A stretch of 54,019 nt of DNA from NCBI GenBank assembly GCA_024278275.1, contig JAJRTN010000182.1, forward strand, positions 1 through 54,019, given 5' to 3'. The translations under genes and the position numbers were made by a program. The notes under the pieces are model-generated. The model saw nothing but the letters and a program-made list of their open reading frames with translations. It had not been told where the DNA came from and made no database searches. Origin of the DNA: Candidatus Hydrogenedentota bacterium. GTDB taxonomy: Bacteria > Hydrogenedentota > Hydrogenedentia > Hydrogenedentales > JAJRTN01. Positions 34,942-47,161 of the stretch are shown here, piece after piece; within the stretch, counting starts at the first letter, position 1; each line of letters starts with the position of its first letter.

Positions 34942-34982
34942 ATGGATAGGGCAAACGAAACGTCGAGACAGGAGTGGGTGCC

Positions 34983-36446
34983 ATGAAGGCCATCATGCTG
35001 ATGTTCGATTCGCTTAACCGCCGAATGCTTGCGCCCTATGGCTGCGACTGGACGCATACGCCCAATTTCCAGCGCCTGGCGAAGCACGCGGTCACCTTCG
35101 ACAACGCCTATATCGGGAGCATGTGTTGCATTCCCGCGCGCCGGGAATTGCACACGGGGCGGTATAATTTTCTCCATCGGGGCTGGGGACCGTTGGAACC
35201 GTTTGACGATTCCATGCCCGCCATGCTTCGAGACAGCGGCATCTATACCCATCTGGCCACGGACCATTACCATTATTGGGAAAACGGCGGTTGTACCTAT
35301 CACACCATGTACAGCAGCTTCGAGATTGAACGGGGGCAGGAGTTCGATCTGTGGAAAGGCGTGGTGCGCGAGCCGGAGGAGCCGGAGCATCTCGGCCATT
35401 GGGCCCGTCCTTATTGGGTCAATCGAGAATTCATGCAGCGGGAGGAGGATCATACTTCCGTGCGCACGGTGAAGCGCGGCCTGGAGTTTATCGAGCGCAA
35501 CCACCACGACGACCGGTGGTTTCTCCACATAGAGTGTTTTGATCCCCACGAGCCGTATTTCGCCAACGAGCAGTTCCGCAAGCTCTATGCCCACGATTAT
35601 GACGGTCCCCATTTCGACTGGCCTTCCTACCGGCCCGTCAATGAAACGCCCGAACAGGTCGAGCATTGCCGGCGCGAGTACGCCGCGTTGCTGAGCATGT
35701 GCGACGCCCAGTTGGGCAAAGTGCTGGATATGATGGACGAAAAGGGCTTGTGGGACGATACCATGCTGATCGTCAACACGGACCACGGATACCTCCTGGG
35801 TGAGCATGGATGGTGGGCCAAGGCCATGCCGCCCTGGTACCAGGAGTTGGCGAATACGCCCCTGTTTATCTGGGATCCACGGTCCCGCGTGGCGGGTGAG
35901 CGGCGGCAGGCGCTGGTGCAGACCATTGACCTCGCGCCCACGCTGCTGGATTACTTTGGCGTGACGCCCACGGCGGACATGGAGGGCGTGCCTTTGGCCC
36001 AAACCATTGCCGATGACACGACGGTTCGCGACGCGGCGCTTTTCGGGATGTTCGGGTGCCAGGTGAACGTTACGGATGGACGGTATGTCTACATGCGGGC
36101 CGCGGTTCCGGGCAATGAGCCCTGTTACGAATACACCCTCATGCCCCAGCTCATGCGCAACGCCATGCCGGTCGAGCGTCTGAGAAAGGCTGTTCTCGGC
36201 CCCGCCTTCCCCTTCACCAAGGGATGCCCCACGCTGAAAGTGCCGGGGGGTGCCTGGCCGAATGTCTCGCAACATGGCACCACGCTCTTCGACCTCAAGA
36301 CGGACCCGGGCCAGGAGCATCCGCTGGAGGACGCCGCGGTGGAGGCGTCCATGGTGGCGCACCTCGTTCGATTGATGCACAAGAATCACGCTCCCGCCGA
36401 GCAGTTTGAGCGAATCGGGCTGGCCGCGGATGACCGCGGGCAATAG
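34983..36446 (+). CDS. Sulfatase with intact C-x-P-x-R formylglycine motif
   Basis: This 487-aa protein begins MKAIMLMFDSLNRRMLAPYG, with a metal-binding Asp at the start of the sulfatase fold. The nucleophile Cys49 is in MCCIPARRELHTGR: C-I-P-A-R matches the formylglycine signature of type I sulfatases. NTDHGYLLGEHGWWAK supplies the other metal ligands. No signal peptide is seen, so it may be cytoplasmic, unlike the two sulfatase-fold proteins at 22323 and 25903. AGGAG eight bases upstream supports the ATG at 34983. No formylglycine-generating enzyme gene lies in the window. The substrate, perhaps a sulfated glycan fragment, is unknown. Confidence 0.88.
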   Translation: MKAIMLMFDSLNRRMLAPYGCDWTHTPNFQRLAKHAVTFDNAYIGSMCCIPARRELHTGRYNFLHRGWGPLEPFDDSMPAMLRDSGIYTHLATDHYHYWENGGCTYHTMYSSFEIERGQEFDLWKGVVREPEEPEHLGHWARPYWVNREFMQREEDHTSVRTVKRGLEFIERNHHDDRWFLHIECFDPHEPYFANEQFRKLYAHDYDGPHFDWPSYRPVNETPEQVEHCRREYAALLSMCDAQLGKVLDMMDEKGLWDDTMLIVNTDHGYLLGEHGWWAKAMPPWYQELANTPLFIWDPRSRVAGERRQALVQTIDLAPTLLDYFGVTPTADMEGVPLAQTIADDTTVRDAALFGMFGCQVNVTDGRYVYMRAAVPGNEPCYEYTLMPQLMRNAMPVERLRKAVLGPAFPFTKGCPTLKVPGGAWPNVSQHGTTLFDLKTDPGQEHPLEDAAVEASMVAHLVRLMHKNHAPAEQFERIGLAADDRGQ

Positions 36447-36721: not shown

Positions 36722-38758
36722 TTGAGCAATTCTGAAGAAGTCACGGCCGCTGCTTTGGCGAGTATGGCGCCACCCGGTCAATTGGGCGACGATGTGAAGC
36801 CAAGGTTTGTCTCCCTGCGCTCTATATTGATCGCCTGCGCGCTGATGCCCATCATGGCCATCTGGGTTGTCTCCTCGGAACTCATCTGGTATTCGGGCCA
36901 TTCCACCACCATTTCCCTTTTCTTCCATGTCACGTTCGTGATTTTCCTCCTGGCCCTTCTCAATCTCGTTGTTGAACACAAGTGGCCCCGTCACGCCCTG
37001 ACCCCCGGCGAACTCATGACCATCTACATGATGCTCTCGGTGGGCAGCACGTTTTGCAGCCATGATCTCTTGCAGATCATGATCCCCATGCTGGGCTATC
37101 CCGCCTATTTCGCCAATCCGCAGAATGGCTGGGCGAATGTTATTCTGAACCGCATCCCCAGTTGGGCTTACCTGGGCAACAGCACGCCAAGCGCCGGTGA
37201 GGCCATGACGGGGCTTGCCGTGGGGAACTCAACCATTTATGACTGGGGCATCCTGTTGGCCTGGGCGAAGCCGCTGGCGTTTTGGGGCACTTTTCTGCTG
37301 GCGCTGATGGGCGCGCTGCTGACGATCAATATCTTCTTTCGTCTGCACTGGACGGAACGGGAGAAGCTCAGTTTTCCGGTGATCCAGATCCCCCTGTTGA
37401 TTGCGACGAATCTGCGTTCGCTGCTGACCAATAAGCTGTTCTGGATCGCTTTCGGCATTACGGCTTCCATTGATATTCTCAACGGTTTCCAGTATCTCTA
37501 CCCCAACCTGCCGGCCATTCCCATCGTCAAGGCGTTCACCTTCGCGGATTATTTCACCGAGCGCCCCTGGAACGCCATCGCCGCGACGGAGATCAATCTC
37601 TATCCCTTCGTGATTGGCCTGGTGTTCTTCATGCCGGTCGACCTGGCCTTCAGTTGCTGGTTTTTCTACCTCTTTTTCCAGTTGCAGCGGGTACTGACCT
37701 CGGCCATCGGCATCACCGATCTGCCCGGTTTTCCCTTTCCCAACGAGCAGGCCGCGGGAGGCTACATCGCCCTGGGCCTGCTGGCCATCTGGCTGTCCCG
37801 CAAGCACCTGAAAGGCGTTTTCCGGAAGATACTCGGGTTGCCGGGGGGCACCGATGATTCGGCGGAACCCATGAGCTACCGGGCCGCCTTGGTTATCTTC
37901 CTGACCTGTTTCGTGGTGCTCATCGTGGAGGGGGTGATGCTTACGCGCACCATCCCCGAAGGGCAGGCCAACGTCACGGGCATTGGCTATTCCATCGTGA
38001 TCATGATCGCCTTCTTCATTATCTTTTTCCTCTACTCGATTGCCATTGCGCGCATGCGCGCGGAGTTGGGGCCTCCGGCCCACGATCTGCACAACATGGG
38101 GCCCGACGCGGTGATTCACAACGCGTTGGGCACGCACGGCCTGGGGTATAACAACGTGGCCGCTTTCACCATGTTCTTCTGGTTCAACCGGGCGTACCGG
38201 GCGCACTTCTCGGCGCACAGCATGGAAGGGTTCAAACTGGCCCAACTCACGCGCTTGACCAGCCGGTCCATGATGTACGCCATGCTGGTGGCCATTGTCG
38301 TGGGTATTCTGGCGGCGTTTTGGGCGTTGCTGCACCTGCTGACGGTCCATGGGTACAGCGGCCGGCCCGCGGGTGACGCTTTCTCGGCCGAGGCGTGGAA
38401 CAAGATGGCGGCGTGGCTGTCTTTCCCCCAGCGACCGAAGATAGCGGCCACCCTGGCGGTGGTGGTCGGTTTTGGATTCTCCATTCTGCTCGGCGGCATG
38501 CGCATGCGTTTCACCTGGTGGCTCTGGCACCCGGTGGGTTACGCGACCTCCACGTCGTGGTCCATGGGGAAACTCTGGTTCTGCATGTTCCTGGGCTGGC
38601 TGGTCAAGGCCCTGATTATCCGTTACGGTGGCGCTCAACTGTACCGCAAGGCCATGCCTTTCTTTATCGGACTGGTCATGGGCGAGTTCGTGGTCGGCAG
38701 TCTCTGGTTGATTTACGGCGACATCGTGGGGGTTACCGTGTACCGCTTCTGGGGATAG
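36722..38758 (+). CDS. OPT-like membrane protein (DUF6785/DUF6784 type), copy 1
   Basis: The 678-aa protein has twelve or more hydrophobic spans. WVVSSELIWYSGHSTTISLF and HALTPGELMTIYMMLSVGST in the first 120 residues are typical of proteins annotated DUF6785. FFWFNRAYRAHFSAHSMEGF, followed by the C-terminal span cluster, matches the DUF6784 part. The family resembles oligopeptide transporters (OPT), but no substrate is known. AAGGA eight bases upstream supports the TTG start. It is the first gene of a run of five same-strand genes continuing with a pseudopeptidase-FtsX fusion 98 bases downstream. Family naming is from memory of its motifs. Confidence 0.75.
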   Translation: MSNSEEVTAAALASMAPPGQLGDDVKPRFVSLRSILIACALMPIMAIWVVSSELIWYSGHSTTISLFFHVTFVIFLLALLNLVVEHKWPRHALTPGELMTIYMMLSVGSTFCSHDLLQIMIPMLGYPAYFANPQNGWANVILNRIPSWAYLGNSTPSAGEAMTGLAVGNSTIYDWGILLAWAKPLAFWGTFLLALMGALLTINIFFRLHWTEREKLSFPVIQIPLLIATNLRSLLTNKLFWIAFGITASIDILNGFQYLYPNLPAIPIVKAFTFADYFTERPWNAIAATEINLYPFVIGLVFFMPVDLAFSCWFFYLFFQLQRVLTSAIGITDLPGFPFPNEQAAGGYIALGLLAIWLSRKHLKGVFRKILGLPGGTDDSAEPMSYRAALVIFLTCFVVLIVEGVMLTRTIPEGQANVTGIGYSIVIMIAFFIIFFLYSIAIARMRAELGPPAHDLHNMGPDAVIHNALGTHGLGYNNVAAFTMFFWFNRAYRAHFSAHSMEGFKLAQLTRLTSRSMMYAMLVAIVVGILAAFWALLHLLTVHGYSGRPAGDAFSAEAWNKMAAWLSFPQRPKIAATLAVVVGFGFSILLGGMRMRFTWWLWHPVGYATSTSWSMGKLWFCMFLGWLVKALIIRYGGAQLYRKAMPFFIGLVMGEFVVGSLWLIYGDIVGVTVYRFWG

Positions 38759-38856: not shown

Positions 38857-41800
38857 ATGTCAAGAAAAGAGTCTATAGGGTCCAGGCTGACATGGACCTT
38901 CCTGGCCGTGGTGATTATCGCGGTCACCGTGGCGGGCGCCTGGTGGACCGGACGCCCCACCAAGCTTGTCATCGACATTCCCAAAGTGGGTTTGGACGAT
39001 GACCTTCGTATTGACAATATCCGCAACTATATTCAGCGCCTGACGCGCTATCCGTCCCGCATGTCGGGGTCGGCGGGAGCCGAGGACGCTTTCCGGTTTA
39101 TTACCGGCGAAATGGAGCGGCTGGGCGTCTCCGATTATGAAGTGCAGTCTTTCGACGTGGCCGTGCCGGTGGTTACGCGCGCCGTGCTTCGCCTGGGCAC
39201 GGGACCGAAGGCCCCCGAGATCCCGTTGCATCCCCTGTGGCCCAACCTGGTCCGCACGAGTCAGACACCGCCCGAGGGACTGACGGGGCCGATTGTGGAC
39301 GTGGGCCGGGGCACCGACGCGGACTTGGCGGGCAAGGCCATTCGCGGATCCATCGTGGTGATGGACTCCAAGAGCGAGGCCGAATGGCTGAGCATCCAGG
39401 AGTTTGGCGGCAAGGCGGTCATTTTCCGGGCGAATCCGGACAGCACGGGCAACCAGGCGCGCAAGAAATTCCTCACCGTGCCCGCTAATATCCCGCGTTT
39501 TTACATCGAAACCGGGCATTTGGCCGCGCTGGATGCCTATGCCGCCAAGAAGGGCGCGCAGGCCAACCTGCAATGCGACATGGAGTGGCGGAATGTTACG
39601 GCGCGAAATATCTTTGTCAGGCTCACGGGGGGGAATCCCCTGCCCGATTCCACGCCGGAAGACCTGAAGCCCGTTATTTTCCATACCTATTACGACAGCA
39701 TCAGCGTGGTGCCGGACCTTGCGCCGGGGGCCGAGCAGGCCTGCGGGGCGGCGACCCTTCTCGAACTGGCCCGTTACATCAAGAACCTGGGTGAAGCGCC
39801 CACCCGCCCCATCTACCTTCTTTTCACGGGCGCTCACGGACAGGCCCTCGGCGGCATCACCCATTTCACGCGGAAACTCTCCGACGGGTTGCGCCATGGC
39901 TGGGCGGCGGAAGACGCGGATTCCCTGCTCGCCCGGATGGGCGAGCCCAGTTTGATGATTGGCCTGGACCTTTCCAGCCGTTCCCATCGGATGGGGCTGT
40001 TCGCCATGGGCCGCTTCCGCCAGCAGTATGAGCATTTACTGCGGCCCAAGTTTGCCGAACTGGGTCTGAAGCTGGACAAGTACGCGCGGGATCACATGAC
40101 CGATTATGACGAGGAATCGCGGTACTCGGTTCACACGAAAACGCCTTTCGTTGATTGTATCAACCTTACCCTCGGTCGCGGTTGGTGGACCTACTTCCCT
40201 TACCAGTCAACCTTCGAGAGCGAAATCCCTACGTTGGCCGGCATTCCGGCGGTCACACTGGGCACCATCAATGACGACCGGCCCCTGGTGGATACGCCGG
40301 AGGATCGTGTCGACCGTCTTGATTTTGACCTGCTGGAACAGCAGCTTACCTACAAGGAAGGGCAGCGGCCCGGCCTCGCCAAGCTGATGCTGGCCTTCGC
40401 CTATTGGCGCGGGCCGTTCATCAGCGGCGATCTCGAGTACAAGATGGGGCGAGTGCAGGGGCGCACGGTCTGGCTGAACCAGGAGAAGGACTACACGCCG
40501 AACCGCGCGTTGGCCCATGCGGTGGTCGCCCTCAAGACCTACCGCGCGGACAAGTACCTCATGGGTACGCGCGGCATGCCCGTGGTGATTTCGGACGATG
40601 ACGGCAATTATGTCTTCGACGGACTCATCGATGTCACCGCCAATGCCCAGTTCCGCAAGGTGGAGGCGGAGTCTTACGGCATCGCCACCCGGGACTTCCT
40701 CGATGCCAATCCCGAGGCGCGCCGCGAGTATCTTCGCATCCTGCGCAAGGGCGGGCAGGAGGCCAGGGATGTGGCGGCCGACGGCAGCATCATGTTCGCG
40801 GTGGACCAGGCGCGTCCCGGCGAGTATCCCTTCGCCACGGGCATTATGAAGGAAGACCAGTATCTCAACCTGGTGAACTTCCCCTGCAAGCCCATCACGC
40901 TTTACGGATTGCTGGAGCCGCGCGGTTTCAATTCCCTGACCGACCTTCAGATCCTGGACGCTTCCACGGAGAGTCCGCCCTACCAGTGGGGGGTCAGCAA
41001 GATTGACGTGGCCTGGGGGGACCCGGAAGAGAATTGCATGAGCGTCTGGGCCGATCCGACGCTGGTGGTACGGCTGACCCTGGGCTTTGGCCTGCGCGAA
41101 AAACGGCTCGTGCTGCTGAACAACTCCCCGGAAGACCCCATCGGCAAGGGGTATGTGCTCAGCGACCTGGAGACCGTGCCCTCGTGGGTGTTGCAGGGCG
41201 CGCAAAACATGCTGTGGCTCGACGACTATCGCATCAACCAGTTTGAGTCGAACGGCGTCACCAACCCGCGCGTGACGGAACTGCACGGTGAGGCCACCCG
41301 GTTGCTGGCAGAGGCGAAAGAAGCCCTTGAAAACCGGGATTACGCCACCTACCGCACCAAGGCGGAGCGGGGCTGGGCGCTCGAAAGCAGTGTTTACAAC
41401 GAGTTGCTGGGCACGGCCAACAACATGATCAAGGGCGTACTCTTCTACCTGCTGTTGCTCCTGCCCTTTTCCTACTGCCTGGAACGCCTCGTGTTCGCGA
41501 GCGGTACCATCAAGGGCCGTATCATCGGCATGTTGGTGGTTTTCAGCATCAGTTTCATCGGTCTGGCCATGATTCACCCGGCCTTCCGCTTCACCATGAC
41601 CCCGCTGCTGGTGCTCCTGGCTTTCATCATCCTCTCCCTCGCCGTGTCGGTGAGCCTGTTGATTCTCGGCAAGTTCGACGCCCTGCTTCAGGAGCGCAAA
41701 CAGGCGGCGACCGGCACGCACGAGGACAGCGTGGCGGTGAGCAACGTGGCCATTCGCGCCATTGACCTGGGCATCGCCAATATCCGGCGCCGCCCGCAGC

Positions 41801-43581
41801 GGGCCTGGCTGACGGGCACCACCATCGTGCTGGTCACCTTCACCCTGTTGTCGTTCACCTCCGTGGTGCCGGAAGTGAGCATTTCCCGGCTCAAGCATCC
41901 CGACGGCAAGCCGGTGTACCGCGGACTGCTCACGCGTGATCCCCACTGGAACCCCATGCCGAACCCCCTCTATGATTCGCTCCGCCGCAGTTTCCTGGAC
42001 GAAGTCCACGGGGGGCCCAAGGGAAATGTCCTGGCCGGTCGGGCCTGGTATTTTTCCGACTACGCGGGAAACCTTTCGCAGGTTGATCTTCTCACGGTGG
42101 ACGATAAAGCGGACGCGGCCAGAGAAAAGACCATGGATTCCAAGGGCACCTTCACGGCCGTGTCGCTGATCGGCCTGGAGCCGGATGAGGTCAAGATCAC
42201 CGATGTGGCTTCGACGCTCGTGGCGGGCCGGTGGTTTAAGGACCCGGACGAGAAGTCCATCATATTGCCCGAGCACGTGGCCGAGAACCTGGGGCTGGGC
42301 AAAGACGACTTGGGAACGCTGATCCGTGTCTTCGGCCAGGAACTGCCTTTGGTGGGGATTCTGGACGGCAAGAAGTTTGACGAACTGCGCGACATTGACG
42401 GTGAGCCGCTGACGCCGGTGAACTTCCAGCAGCAGTTGCTCAATGACGCGGCCTCGGAAACCGTCCAGGATGTGGACACGCTGAAAGAGTACGTCCATTG
42501 GCCCACGGACCGGAACGTGTTTGTACCCTTCAAGTTTTGCCGGAGCCTGGGTGGCACCATCCGCAGCGTGGCCATTCTCTCCGGCCCGGATGTAACCCCC
42601 GGCGGGGAAGCGGAAGAGTACGCCCGCCGCTCGAACCTGACCATTCTGGCAAGCGAAGAAGGCACGGTTACCCTGTTCGCCTCCATGAATCGCAGCCGCA
42701 TGACCGGCGCCGCGCAGATCATCATTCCGCTCATCCTGGGCTTCATCATGGTACTGGGCACCATGCTCGGCTCGGTCTATGAACGGCGCCGCGAGATCTT
42801 CGTATACAACTCCGTCGGCCTTTCCCCCAAGAACGTGGCCTCCCTTTTCCTGGCCGAGTCCGGGGTGTACGCCATCATCGGCGCGTCCGTCGGTTACCTG
42901 CTGGGCCAGGCCATTTCGAAAGGGCTGCTTACGACGGGGCTTCTTTCCGGCCTGAGCCTGAACTACTCCGCGAGTACGACGGTTATCGTCACCCTGATGA
43001 CCATGGGCATCGTGCTGATTTCCACCATCTACCCCGCGCGCCAGGCCTTTCTGTCGGCCATTCCCGAGCAACGCAAGCGCTTCGATGATTTTGAGGATGG
43101 CGACGACGAGGCGACGGGGGACAGCATCAGTCTGTTCCTTCCCTTCGTCGCCACGCCCGGAAGCGTCTTTGCCATGCAGGCGTACATGGAAGAATACCTG
43201 GACAGCGTGCAGGGTGTTTCGGTCGGTCGTCTGGCCGTGGACGACTTGAAGGCCGGCATGGGTGAAGTGGCCGGGCAACCCGCGCCCGTCTTGCACTTCC
43301 GGGCCTGGCTGGCGCCCTTCGACCTGGGTATCAGCCACGATGCGGCATTGCGCATCGTGTTCCGCGAGGATCGTGGCGTGTTCCAGTATCACCTCACGGC
43401 CACCCGGCACAGTGGGGACCAGCAGAACTGGCGGCGTCTCACGCCCTGGTTCATCATGGCCGTGCGCAAGCAGCTCCTGATGTGGCGCATTCTCACGCCG
43501 GAAGACCACGAGAAATACATGGATAAGGCCGAGCGCCTGTTCGGACAGCGAACCATTTCTGAGGATCCGACCCTTGGCTAA
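38857..43581 (+). CDS. Fusion of M28-peptidase-like ectodomain and FtsX-type permease, 1574 aa
   Basis: A single span at about 12-31 leads to an extracytoplasmic region of about 820 residues. Its first half resembles M28 aminopeptidases (NIFVRLTGG, then FHTYYDSISVVPDLAPGAEQ near 274-293 and LLFTGAHGQALGG near 320). The usual metal and catalytic residues are replaced: the HxD His is Tyr, the GADD Asps are Glu and Gln, and the Glu-Glu pair is His-Gly. Spans follow at about 857-940. A MacB-type permease then has one span (982-1003), a periplasmic domain of about 280 residues, and three spans (about 1286-1395) including MLGSVYERRREIFVYNSVGL. A 180-residue cytoplasmic tail is unassigned. It is probably a pseudopeptidase sensor or substrate-binding part of an ABC system. 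Confidence 0.8.
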   Translation: MSRKESIGSRLTWTFLAVVIIAVTVAGAWWTGRPTKLVIDIPKVGLDDDLRIDNIRNYIQRLTRYPSRMSGSAGAEDAFRFITGEMERLGVSDYEVQSFDVAVPVVTRAVLRLGTGPKAPEIPLHPLWPNLVRTSQTPPEGLTGPIVDVGRGTDADLAGKAIRGSIVVMDSKSEAEWLSIQEFGGKAVIFRANPDSTGNQARKKFLTVPANIPRFYIETGHLAALDAYAAKKGAQANLQCDMEWRNVTARNIFVRLTGGNPLPDSTPEDLKPVIFHTYYDSISVVPDLAPGAEQACGAATLLELARYIKNLGEAPTRPIYLLFTGAHGQALGGITHFTRKLSDGLRHGWAAEDADSLLARMGEPSLMIGLDLSSRSHRMGLFAMGRFRQQYEHLLRPKFAELGLKLDKYARDHMTDYDEESRYSVHTKTPFVDCINLTLGRGWWTYFPYQSTFESEIPTLAGIPAVTLGTINDDRPLVDTPEDRVDRLDFDLLEQQLTYKEGQRPGLAKLMLAFAYWRGPFISGDLEYKMGRVQGRTVWLNQEKDYTPNRALAHAVVALKTYRADKYLMGTRGMPVVISDDDGNYVFDGLIDVTANAQFRKVEAESYGIATRDFLDANPEARREYLRILRKGGQEARDVAADGSIMFAVDQARPGEYPFATGIMKEDQYLNLVNFPCKPITLYGLLEPRGFNSLTDLQILDASTESPPYQWGVSKIDVAWGDPEENCMSVWADPTLVVRLTLGFGLREKRLVLLNNSPEDPIGKGYVLSDLETVPSWVLQGAQNMLWLDDYRINQFESNGVTNPRVTELHGEATRLLAEAKEALENRDYATYRTKAERGWALESSVYNELLGTANNMIKGVLFYLLLLLPFSYCLERLVFASGTIKGRIIGMLVVFSISFIGLAMIHPAFRFTMTPLLVLLAFIILSLAVSVSLLILGKFDALLQERKQAATGTHEDSVAVSNVAIRAIDLGIANIRRRPQRAWLTGTTIVLVTFTLLSFTSVVPEVSISRLKHPDGKPVYRGLLTRDPHWNPMPNPLYDSLRRSFLDEVHGGPKGNVLAGRAWYFSDYAGNLSQVDLLTVDDKADAAREKTMDSKGTFTAVSLIGLEPDEVKITDVASTLVAGRWFKDPDEKSIILPEHVAENLGLGKDDLGTLIRVFGQELPLVGILDGKKFDELRDIDGEPLTPVNFQQQLLNDAASETVQDVDTLKEYVHWPTDRNVFVPFKFCRSLGGTIRSVAILSGPDVTPGGEAEEYARRSNLTILASEEGTVTLFASMNRSRMTGAAQIIIPLILGFIMVLGTMLGSVYERRREIFVYNSVGLSPKNVASLFLAESGVYAIIGASVGYLLGQAISKGLLTTGLLSGLSLNYSASTTVIVTLMTMGIVLISTIYPARQAFLSAIPEQRKRFDDFEDGDDEATGDSISLFLPFVATPGSVFAMQAYMEEYLDSVQGVSVGRLAVDDLKAGMGEVAGQPAPVLHFRAWLAPFDLGISHDAALRIVFREDRGVFQYHLTATRHSGDQQNWRRLTPWFIMAVRKQLLMWRILTPEDHEKYMDKAERLFGQRTISEDPTLG

Positions 43582-45712
43582 CGCGGACAAGAAGAAATAC
43601 GAATCAGAGAACGACCAGTTCGCGAAAGAGTATGCCGTTGCCTTTGCGGACAAGACCCTTGAGCGGGGGCCCTACGAGGACGGTTTCTCCAGCCGGACCA
43701 TCCTGGGCGCGTTGTTCGTAGCCGTGATCATGATGCCGGGCTCGGTGTACCTGGGACTGGTGGCCGGCGCGTCGCTCGGCCCCGCGGCGGAATGGGTGAC
43801 CATCATTCTTTTCGCCGAAATGGCACGGCGCAGTTTCGCCCACCTGAAACGGCAGGAAGTCTTTATTCTTTTTTACGTGGCGTCCTCCGTGGCGGCGGTC
43901 ACCCTGATGCACCTGGCGCTTTCCGGAGGCCCTTTCGCCGCGTGCATTTGGAACCAGTATCTTATCCAGTCTCCGCAGACGGAAATCATCGCCCCCGAGA
44001 TCCCGGCGTGGGTCGCGCCTTCCGCCGATTCGGCCGCCCTCCTCGACCGTAACCTGTGGCATCCCGATTGGTGGGTTGTGCCCGGCGTCGAGGGTTTCCA
44101 GAGATTCCTGTCGCCCATTGTCCTCATCTGTATAGGTTATCTCTTCGGGCGCATGGCCTGGTTCGGGCTGGGTTACCTGCTTTTCCGGGCCACCTCCGAC
44201 CATGAGCGTCTGCCTTTTCCGCTGGCTCCCATCGCCGCGCAGGGCGCGACGGCCCTGGCCGAGTCCACGGATCGGGACGATGCAGGTATGCAAACGGGCA
44301 AGCAATCGTGGCGGTGGAATGTTTTCAGCGTGGGCGCCACGCTGGGCATCGTGTTCGGCGCGCTTTACATCATGATTCCCGTGTGCAGCGGTCTTTTCAT
44401 GACCAAGCCCATCATGCTCTTGCCCATCCCCTTCATCGACTTGACCTCGCGGGTTGAAGGCTTCCTTCCCGCGAGTTTGCTGTCCATCAGTTTCGACGCG
44501 GGCATCTTTATCGCGGGCATGATCCTGCCTTTCCGCCTGGTCATGGGTACGTTCAGCGCGGTGCTGATCACCAATTTCGTGGCGAACCCGATCTTGGCAA
44601 CCTATGGCTTCTTTCCGAACTGGAAGCCCGGCAGCGGCCTCCTGGTCAACCAGATGATCCTGAACCTCGACCTGTACATCAGCGTGACCATCGGCATCGC
44701 GCTGGCCGTGGCGGCCATCGGCATGGGTTACCTGGTGAAGTCCACCATTCGGCAGTTGAATACCTCCAAAGAGGAGCGGGCCGCGCGAATCGCCGCGGAA
44801 GACGCGGAACACGCCGACGAACCGAACGCGCCGCCTTACCGCCGCCCCAGCAGGGAACGGGGCGATTTTCCCACTTGGCTGGCTTTTCTCAGCTTCTTCC
44901 TGGCCACCTGCGGCTACATATGGATAGCCCACACGCTCGTGCCGGGGTTCCCGGTGTGGGTGTTCATGATCTTCGGGTTCATCTGGTCGCCCATTAACTC
45001 CTATATTTCCGCGCGACTCATCGGCCTCACCGGCACGGGCCTGGTCATGCCGTACCTGCGCGAGACGGTCTTCGTGGCGAGCAAGTATCCCAACGTGGAC
45101 ATCTGGTTCGCGCCGATTCCGCTCTATGACGTGGGCGCGGCGGCGCAGCAGTTTCGCACCCTTGAATTGACGCGCACGAAGTTCACGTCCGTGATCAAGG
45201 CTGAATTGGCCATGTTTCCCATCGTGCTGGTATGCAGTTTCCTTTTCTGGTGGTTTTTCTGGAACCTCAACCAGGTGCCCTCCGACCAGTTTCCCTTCGC
45301 CGCCCGCATGTGGCCGGTACAGGCGCGCAACGCCTATCTCATCTACACCGCCAACGCGCCTCGGGAAGCGGGCGAGGCCTCGCTGCTCATTCAGGCGATC
45401 AAGCCCTATGTCATCGGCGGCGTGGGCATCGGCGGTTTGCTGGTCTATGGCTTTTTGAGTCTTTTCAAACTGCCGGTCATTTTTTTCTACGGTCTTGTGG
45501 GCGGCACGGGCCAGCCCCTGCACCTGGGTTTGGCCCTGATGGCAGGCGCCCTCGCCGGCAAGTATTACTTTACCCGGAAATTCGGGATCGAGAAGTGGGG
45601 CCGGTACGTGCCCGTGGTGGCGGCGGGTTTCGCCTGCGGCATGGGACTTTCCGGCATGACCGCCGTGGCCCTGGCCCTCATCGCGCAATGCACGCGGCAG
45701 CTGCCCTTCTAG
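43574..45712 (+). CDS. OPT-like membrane protein, copy 2
   Basis: This 712-aa protein has about fourteen hydrophobic spans. YLGLVAGASLGPAAEWVTII near the start and ARLIGLTGTGLVMPYLRE with YPNVDIWFAPIPLYDVGAAA in the second half resemble oligopeptide transporters of the OPT family. A polar cytoplasmic loop rich in Glu, Ala and Arg (about 395-430) separates two halves. GAGGA eight bases upstream supports the TTG start, which overlaps the end of the fusion gene by eight bases. It differs in length and text from the 678-aa OPT-like protein at 36722 but shares its type. Two OPT-like proteins around one ABC-permease fusion suggest they work together on peptides or peptide-like molecules. Confidence 0.75.
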   Translation: MANADKKKYESENDQFAKEYAVAFADKTLERGPYEDGFSSRTILGALFVAVIMMPGSVYLGLVAGASLGPAAEWVTIILFAEMARRSFAHLKRQEVFILFYVASSVAAVTLMHLALSGGPFAACIWNQYLIQSPQTEIIAPEIPAWVAPSADSAALLDRNLWHPDWWVVPGVEGFQRFLSPIVLICIGYLFGRMAWFGLGYLLFRATSDHERLPFPLAPIAAQGATALAESTDRDDAGMQTGKQSWRWNVFSVGATLGIVFGALYIMIPVCSGLFMTKPIMLLPIPFIDLTSRVEGFLPASLLSISFDAGIFIAGMILPFRLVMGTFSAVLITNFVANPILATYGFFPNWKPGSGLLVNQMILNLDLYISVTIGIALAVAAIGMGYLVKSTIRQLNTSKEERAARIAAEDAEHADEPNAPPYRRPSRERGDFPTWLAFLSFFLATCGYIWIAHTLVPGFPVWVFMIFGFIWSPINSYISARLIGLTGTGLVMPYLRETVFVASKYPNVDIWFAPIPLYDVGAAAQQFRTLELTRTKFTSVIKAELAMFPIVLVCSFLFWWFFWNLNQVPSDQFPFAARMWPVQARNAYLIYTANAPREAGEASLLIQAIKPYVIGGVGIGGLLVYGFLSLFKLPVIFFYGLVGGTGQPLHLGLALMAGALAGKYYFTRKFGIEKWGRYVPVVAAGFACGMGLSGMTAVALALIAQCTRQLPF

Positions 45713-45722
45713 CGAGGAACGT

Positions 45723-46418
45723 ATGAGCCAAGTACAAGAATCCATATTCGGCGGCGACCGGTCGGAGAAGCGCCTTGAAAAGGTGCCCCTCCGCAAGGCG
45801 TGGGATATGTGCGTTCAGAACCTGCGCAATCGGCGCGGCCGCTACATGCTGGTCTTCATCAGTATCGCCGTGGTGGTCTCCTTCTTCGTGATTACCCTGA
45901 CCTATCAGCGCATGCTTACCGAGTTGCGCAAGAACGAGGATGTTCACACCCGCGCGGTCATGCAGCGGGCGGGGCTTGTACTCACCGATGAAGATGCGGC
46001 AATCAAGCAGCGGGACCGGATGATCTGGCTCCTTATTCTCTCCGGTTCCCTCGCTTTCGTGGGCGTAACCAACACCATGTACATGAGCGTTACGGAGCGT
46101 TACCGCGAGATTGGGACCCTCAAGTGCCTGGGCGCCCTGGACGGCTTCGTGGTGCAGCTTTTCATCATAGAAAGCGTGCTGATCGGATTGGTAGGCAGTA
46201 CCATCGGCGCCCTGCTGGGATTCATTCTCACCCTCCTGCAAGTGGGCATGACCCTGGAGTTCGGCTTGCTGGGGTGGAGGGTGGTCCTCGTGGGTTTCGG
46301 AGCCGGCGTGCCCGCCGCCATCCTGGGCGGTACCGTTCTTACCGTTCTTGCGTCCATTTACCCGACCGTCGCCGCGGCCCGGATGAAACCGGTCGACGCG
46401 ATGCGCGTGGAGGTCTAG
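45723..46418 (+). CDS. Minimal FtsX-type ABC permease, 231 aa
   Basis: The protein has one span at about 42-62 (VFISIAVVVSFFVITLTY), a periplasmic stretch of only about 40 residues instead of a large MacB domain, then three spans (about 100-225). MSVTERYREIGTLKCLGALD between spans is the coupling segment that contacts the ATPase in MacB/LolCE permeases. YPTVAAARMKPVDAMRVEV ends it in the usual way. It lies ten bases after the OPT-like gene and five bases before the ATPase. Together with the FtsX part of the 1574-aa protein it could form a heterodimeric permease. Confidence 0.9.
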   Translation: MSQVQESIFGGDRSEKRLEKVPLRKAWDMCVQNLRNRRGRYMLVFISIAVVVSFFVITLTYQRMLTELRKNEDVHTRAVMQRAGLVLTDEDAAIKQRDRMIWLLILSGSLAFVGVTNTMYMSVTERYREIGTLKCLGALDGFVVQLFIIESVLIGLVGSTIGALLGFILTLLQVGMTLEFGLLGWRVVLVGFGAGVPAAILGGTVLTVLASIYPTVAAARMKPVDAMRVEV

Positions 46419-46423
46419 TCAAC

Positions 46424-47161
<738 letters not shown>

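Follow-up and report, generated by a model that had tools for sequence, protein, structure and literature searches.

A likely inactive M28 aminopeptidase-fold domain on a bacterial type VII ABC permease, with a candidate role in ligand recognition beside an OPT-fold transporter

What could a domain with the fold of a zinc aminopeptidase be doing on an ABC permease once the residues that bind the metals and carry out catalysis have been replaced? A gene of a Hydrogenedentota genome of 5.35 Mb raises this question. It lies in a stretch of 54,019 nucleotides that we analysed as a whole (hereafter the window), and its product of 1574 aa runs from a signal-anchor helix, through a PA/M28 aminopeptidase-fold ectodomain, to an FtsX-type (type VII) ABC permease. 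The gene and the parts of its product are the following.

38857..43581, + strand: pseudo-M28/FtsX permease gene, 1574 aa, one intact ORF (ORF and translation; Pfam Peptidase_M28 and FtsX)
38887..38943, + strand: N-terminal membrane anchor, residues 11-29 (hydropathy scan)
39154..39591, + strand: PA-like insertion in the ectodomain, about residues 100-245, boundaries approximate (profile alignment collinear with the PA-containing M28 proteins 2ek8 and YwaD; Foldseek matches of the ectodomain model)
39589..40416, + strand: M28-fold core, residues 245-520 (Pfam, PDB profile matches, AlphaFold model, Foldseek)
41425..41664, + strand: membrane helices linking the ectodomain to the permease, residues ~857-936 (hydropathy scan)
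42721..43047, + strand: FtsX permease domain, residues 1289-1397 (Pfam FtsX, 42.6 bits, above the curated cut-off)

The initial annotation read positions 39590-40300 (residues ~245-481 of the ORF) as an M28 peptidase domain with its metal and catalytic residues replaced, i.e., a pseudopeptidase turned into a ligand-binding or sensor domain on an ABC permease. The fold is supported by Pfam, by PDB profiles, and by structure comparison with AlphaFold and Foldseek. Peptidase_M28 matches residues 270-339 with 25.9 bits (curated cut-off 21.3) and is also found in 11 of 12 close orthologues, and a PDB profile search retrieves the M28 aminopeptidase 2ek8 with an E value of 3.4e-26 (95 bits). The AlphaFold model, computed for residues 36-885 with 12 orthologues, has a mean pLDDT of 76.7 and a pTM of 0.81, with most of the core at 80-95. 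Its top Foldseek match in the PDB is again 2ek8 (E = 2.4e-23), followed by BSAP, a Pseudomonas aminopeptidase, the transferrin receptor, and glutamate carboxypeptidase II; as the query includes further domains, TM-scores over the whole model are low. At the other end of the chain, the FtsX domain (PF02687) is present in all 12 orthologues and MacB_PCD in 5 of them.

How much of the catalytic site is left? We set the register by aligning PDB sequences with a profile built from 47 non-redundant relatives, and use the numbering of the Vibrio/Aeromonas aminopeptidase (AAP).

39688..39696, + strand: Y278-Y279-D280 at the HxD motif; the ligand H97 is lost and the equivalent of D99 kept (alignments)
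39727..39738, + strand: G291-A292-E293-Q294 at the GAxDD metal loop, shorter by one residue (alignments)
39832..39840, + strand: A326-H327-G328 at the catalytic/metal EE pair, E151 to His and E152 to Gly (alignments)
39967..39969, + strand: D371, equivalent to D179, the sole metal-ligand position kept universally (alignments)
40216..40224, + strand: E454-S455-E456 at the last His ligand, H256 to Ser, with a conserved Glu next to it (alignments)

The YYD, GAEQ, and HG that the initial annotation saw in place of HxD, GADD, and EE are found at residues 278-280, 291-294, and 327-328, and the loss of the metal ligand H256 comes in addition. The metal-ligand histidine of the HxD motif (H97) is a tyrosine, Y278; the bridging metal ligand D117 corresponds to E293 or to a gap; the catalytic E151 is replaced by H327, and the ligand E152 by G328. 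In all, four of the five metal ligands are replaced along with the catalytic glutamate, and D179 is the only ligand left. The position of H327 comes from an ungapped profile alignment with the PDB entry 2anp, in which it falls on position 151; this entry has AYAAHEVGLRG where wild-type AAP entries have AYAAEEVGLRG, i.e., position 151 is altered to histidine. An early reading, rejected on this alignment, had put H327 at the second glutamate of the EE pair instead of the first. In the predicted structure, strands 273-278 and 366-371 end at Y278 and D371, helix 292-309 begins at A292, and strand 319-324 precedes the loop with H327; judged from these strand and helix ends, the model places the replaced residues where the M28 site lies.

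The PA-plus-M28 architecture and the fold are those of the PA-bearing M28 zinc aminopeptidases of Aneurinibacillus (2ek8) and B. subtilis (YwaD/BSAP), whereas the altered site and the fused FtsX permease set the protein apart from them. The title of a paper in the reference list of PMC4320195 calls the E151H enzyme functional. Going by that title, an M28 enzyme can stay functional with a histidine at position 151 as its sole change; what argues for inactivity is therefore the added loss of H97, D117, E152, and H256. No metal ligands supplied from elsewhere in the chain are seen in the sequence, where the residues universal at the site are the D179 equivalent and the new H327. The predicted catalytic inactivity of the domain is strongly supported by the loss of metal and catalytic residues throughout the family.

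The extent of this family became apparent from profile searches. Our first alignment held twelve full-length orthologues, all of the same phylum. A scan of genome contigs with the single sequence gave no relatives; a scan with the 12-row alignment recovered 359, of which 80 were kept. The contig scan was keyed on two permease-side patterns (DIDGE-L-P and TMLGSVYE), so that there was no selection on the M28 motifs. By record title, and with the reserve that bins may be mislabelled, the relatives span at least 10 phyla: Hydrogenedentota, Lentisphaerota, Kiritimatiellota, Sumerlaeota, Planctomycetota, Omnitrophota, Armatimonadota, Latescibacterota, Gemmatimonadota, Zixiibacteriota, Desantisbacteria, FCPU426, and others. 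The family is separated from the next M28 proteins by a clean gap (full-length copies score at least 471 bits, against 61 bits).

The replacements are conserved among these homologues. Among the 47 non-redundant relatives, position 327 is always His, D280, S283, R475, and D483 are likewise invariant, D371 is Asp in 46, and E456 is kept in 44. Position 328 is F in 23, G in 15, Y in 4, H in 3, and otherwise C or S, never Glu; position 278 is Y in 36, H in 5, and F in 3; position 455 is His in only 2. An alignment of 82 rows, which includes a few near-duplicates, gives the same pattern: neither Glu nor Asp occurs at position 328; 12 rows have Phe, Trp, Cys, or Ser at position 278; Ser, Gly, or Ala predominates at position 455; and position 293 is variable. 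A member of the M28-FtsX fusion family with an intact site was sought and none was found, all 82 rows having His at the place of the catalytic glutamate. As a control, other M28 homologues of the phylum retain HYD/HLD, GAxDD, and mostly EE.

One could see in the low sequence identity to active M28 enzymes the mark of a decaying remnant, or of a sequencing artefact in one bin. Yet the ORF is intact in more than 60 loci, all of which share the replacements at pairwise identities down to ~24%, and the loops that surrounded the old site average 3.21 bits, against 1.95 for the remaining core (Mann-Whitney p = 4e-12). Conservation across phyla already refutes such degeneration, to which we give next to no credence. 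As judged from the alignments, the changed site is under purifying selection, and the loops round it are the most conserved part of the core. Local decay is rejected; what we see is probably an old pseudopeptidase family whose pocket has been conserved and put to a new use.

The evolution of the site seems to have been uneven. The state of position 278 changed at least nine times on the permease tree, which is unrooted; this position appears labile, H327 fixed. With the same reserve about the root, this pattern suggests that the histidine at the catalytic position was set early and that the metal-ligand positions drifted later. Some members retain more of the old site: one protein (L090, in genome G045) has both His ligands, and a clade of Latescibacterota and Gemmatimonadota keeps H278. 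These exceptions, and the near universality of H327 and D371, would suit a domain with residual chemistry, either at a single-metal site made from H327, D371, E293, and Y/H278, or as a metal-free hydrolase using H327. Glutaminyl cyclases, which have the same fold as M28, work with a single zinc. The aminopeptidase in 2anp, with its His at 151, points the same way, as far as the cited title goes in calling E151H functional. Against this, there is no universal set of three ligands, because positions 278, 293, and 455 vary and 328 is never Glu or Asp, and we consider residual chemistry unlikely. A universal metal site was rejected on the variation at positions 278, 293, 328, and 455 in the 82 rows.

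The family also shows some variation outside the site. One genome (G048) has two very diverged copies of the gene (L041 and L042). The copy at L049:6398-11419 (G067) has an extra segment of ~100 aa near residue 1145, in the numbering of the window protein, which resembles a partial repeat of the MacB-like periplasmic region. At four loci of metagenome contigs (L061, L064, L065, and L110) the gene is split between frames, probably by sequencing or assembly frameshifts.

If the domain does not cleave peptides, it may bind something or hold something in place. The well-known M28 pseudopeptidases, namely the transferrin receptor, nicastrin, and nicalin, are eukaryotic receptors and scaffolds. They too are membrane-anchored M28-fold ectodomains, used for binding or scaffolding, but none of them is an ABC permease. 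Among the sequences compared, the bacterial family alone has an invariant His in place of the catalytic glutamate, a shortened metal loop, and a fusion to FtsX. Nicalin and nicastrin are thought to act as structural or docking modules. The main rival to ligand recognition is that the pseudopeptidase is such a module only, holding the permease and its partners together without any small ligand. The profile search also retrieves nicalin (E = 1e-9), nicastrin (E = 2e-4), and the transferrin receptor; nicalin resembles the family in the long loop that separates its HYD from its GAD; and strict co-occurrence with other membrane proteins (see below) suits a scaffold. However, a docking surface could be anywhere, whereas conservation peaks in the loops of the former pocket, including the polar or charged H327, D280, D371, and E456. 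We hold the purely structural role to be possible, though not probable.

The long loop from HYD/YYD to GAD/GAE is seen when nicalin (PDB 7tm3) is compared with residues 275-372 (39679-39972), and it could possibly link the family to the origin of nicalin and nicastrin. In the profile search nicalin scores 40 bits, against 43 for AAP and 95 for 2ek8, over alignments of differing lengths.

With which partners might the ectodomain act? The gene is the second of an operon of closely spaced or overlapping genes, which runs DUF6785/6784, pseudo-M28-FtsX, 712-aa protein, short FtsX, and ATPase.

36722..38758, + strand: DUF6785/DUF6784 membrane protein, upstream (Pfam); OPT-like, from a weak profile alignment that is collinear with the downstream OPT gene
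43574..45712, + strand: OPT-fold membrane transporter, 712 aa, overlapping the end of the pseudo-M28 gene (AlphaFold, Foldseek, Pfam OPT in relatives)
45723..46418, + strand: short FtsX permease, 231 aa, presumed second transporter half (Pfam FtsX, 57.2 bits)
46424..47161, + strand: MacB/LolD-type ABC ATPase, Walker A and signature motifs intact (sequence; neighbour and co-occurrence searches)

The 712-aa protein has no Pfam match, and OPT is matched by 4 of 35 members of its family (best 1e-5). Sequence searches against solved structures found no relationship; fold comparison gave one. The AlphaFold model (pLDDT 86, pTM 0.87) has a single good Foldseek match, barley YS1 (7wst, E = 9e-11), the next, unrelated match being at E = 0.1. 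The fold is common to this protein and to the OPT/YSL transporters, from which its family differs in being genetically coupled to an ABC permease. It is conserved in many phyla and nevertheless lacks its own Pfam family. The DUF6785 protein aligns collinearly with the 712-aa protein (hhalign, single-pair E = 6e-4, with a probability of only 28%), which is suggestive of a DUF6785 gene product that is OPT-like and distantly homologous to it.

The OPT gene adjoins the pseudo-M28 permease gene across many phyla. Of the 60 loci where the sequence continues downstream for 2.5 kb or more, 49 have it there, and in 39 it is adjacent; it is absent downstream in the other 11, so the link is not universal. 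Among 68 related genomes, the pair of short FtsX and ATPase (called present at a cut of 200 bits) is found in all 14 genomes with pseudo-M28-FtsX and in 2 of the 54 without (Fisher 1e-12, a value that overstates independence). The OPT gene is found in 13 of the same 14 carriers and in 1 of the 54; in the only miss (G043) the gene lies at the end of a contig. The short FtsX-ATPase cluster of one Hydrogenedentota family is unlinked, at another locus, and the co-occurrence still holds. This unlinked cluster and the 11 loci without an OPT gene would agree with separate machines, the pseudo-M28 permease using its own ATPase and the OPT genes being mere neighbours. The strong agreement in presence and absence of the OPT and short FtsX-ATPase genes, and the adjacency of the OPT gene across many phyla, argue against such independence, which we find doubtful.

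The fold, the family-wide loss of the site, the FtsX domain on the same chain, and the co-occurring MacB/LolD-type ATPase strongly support the part of the initial annotation that saw a pseudopeptidase on an ABC permease. Its further suggestion, that the domain binds or senses a ligand, agrees with the conservation of the pocket and with the OPT partner, and is kept here as a conjecture. Our main reading, to which we give a probability of about one half, is that of an ancient inactive M28 domain on a type VII ABC permease, with the old pocket rebuilt, most likely recognising a ligand, and linked to an OPT transporter. As part of the permease, the ectodomain would face outward from the inner membrane. 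Its active-site pocket would have been rebuilt round the invariant H327, D280, D371, S283, and E456 and, farther towards the C-terminus, R475 and D483. The pocket would most likely recognise a ligand, perhaps the end of a peptide or a metal chelate that resembles one. Such binding would be linked, via the FtsX half, the short FtsX, and the MacB/LolD-type ATPase, to the adjoining OPT-fold transporter, and through the conformational coupling of type VII systems the ectodomain would control this transporter or be controlled by it. We infer as its most likely role a ligand-recognition or gating ectodomain that couples a type VII ABC motor to its OPT partner; the formation of the complex, the binding of a ligand, its identity, and the direction of coupling are all part of what we infer. 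A bolder proposal, which we advance only tentatively, is that these proteins form an undescribed multi-protein envelope system of at least 10 mostly uncultured phyla, in which the type VII ABC motor employs a dead aminopeptidase as the receptor or gate of an OPT-fold secondary transporter, to which ATP hydrolysis is coupled via the pseudoenzyme.

Such a system would have partial precedents. FtsX-fold permeases with an ATPase are also found in the type VII systems FtsEX-EnvC, LolCDE, MacAB-TolC, and YbbAP-TesA. In the last of these, the permease works with a periplasmic hydrolase (PMC12646458); here, in contrast, the part that resembles a hydrolase belongs to the permease chain itself, its catalytic site is dismantled, and the gene of an OPT-fold transporter accompanies it. 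A model for an aminopeptidase pocket that recognises without cleaving is the yeast aminopeptidase-like protein Tma108, of the M1 family, whose substrate pocket binds the N-termini of peptides (PMC11266112); it differs in belonging to another peptidase family and in being eukaryotic and cytosolic.

Non-peptidases with the M28 fold have been described before, and so have type VII ABC systems. In the open-access literature, the coverage of which is incomplete, we found no description of an M28-FtsX fusion, of DUF6785, or of nicalin together with bacterial M28 proteins, nor of a bacterial pseudopeptidase in which this fusion is shared by a whole family and has an OPT-fold partner. The widespread bacterial family, with a site apparently lost long ago and a pocket under strong selection, may represent an independent case of an exopeptidase that became a binding domain, and it would connect an OPT-fold transporter with a type VII ABC motor. 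The annotation as M28 peptidase is probably wrong for the whole family, despite a Pfam score above the cut-off.

Other genes are found near the system in some genomes. A PqqD-like protein and a protein of ~310 aa (no Pfam family) precede the short FtsX and the ATPase in Armatimonadota, some Hydrogenedentota, and others (e.g., L068:14496-15888, L126:1525-2757, L191:6540-7844, and L195:2409-3733); they are apparently further parts of the system, and the operon of the window is without both. The cluster that is unlinked in one Hydrogenedentota family is of this kind. In several Hydrogenedentota with an unlinked ATPase, this gene is followed by one for a protein of ~450 aa with SRLATVYSL...IDRP...RTIDKV (L193:3474-4844, L194:1364-2683, and L196:6838-8175). 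Finally, a sulfatase gene (34974-36446) lies upstream of the operon in the window, and similar sulfatases occur near the system at three other loci (L053, L058, and L110).
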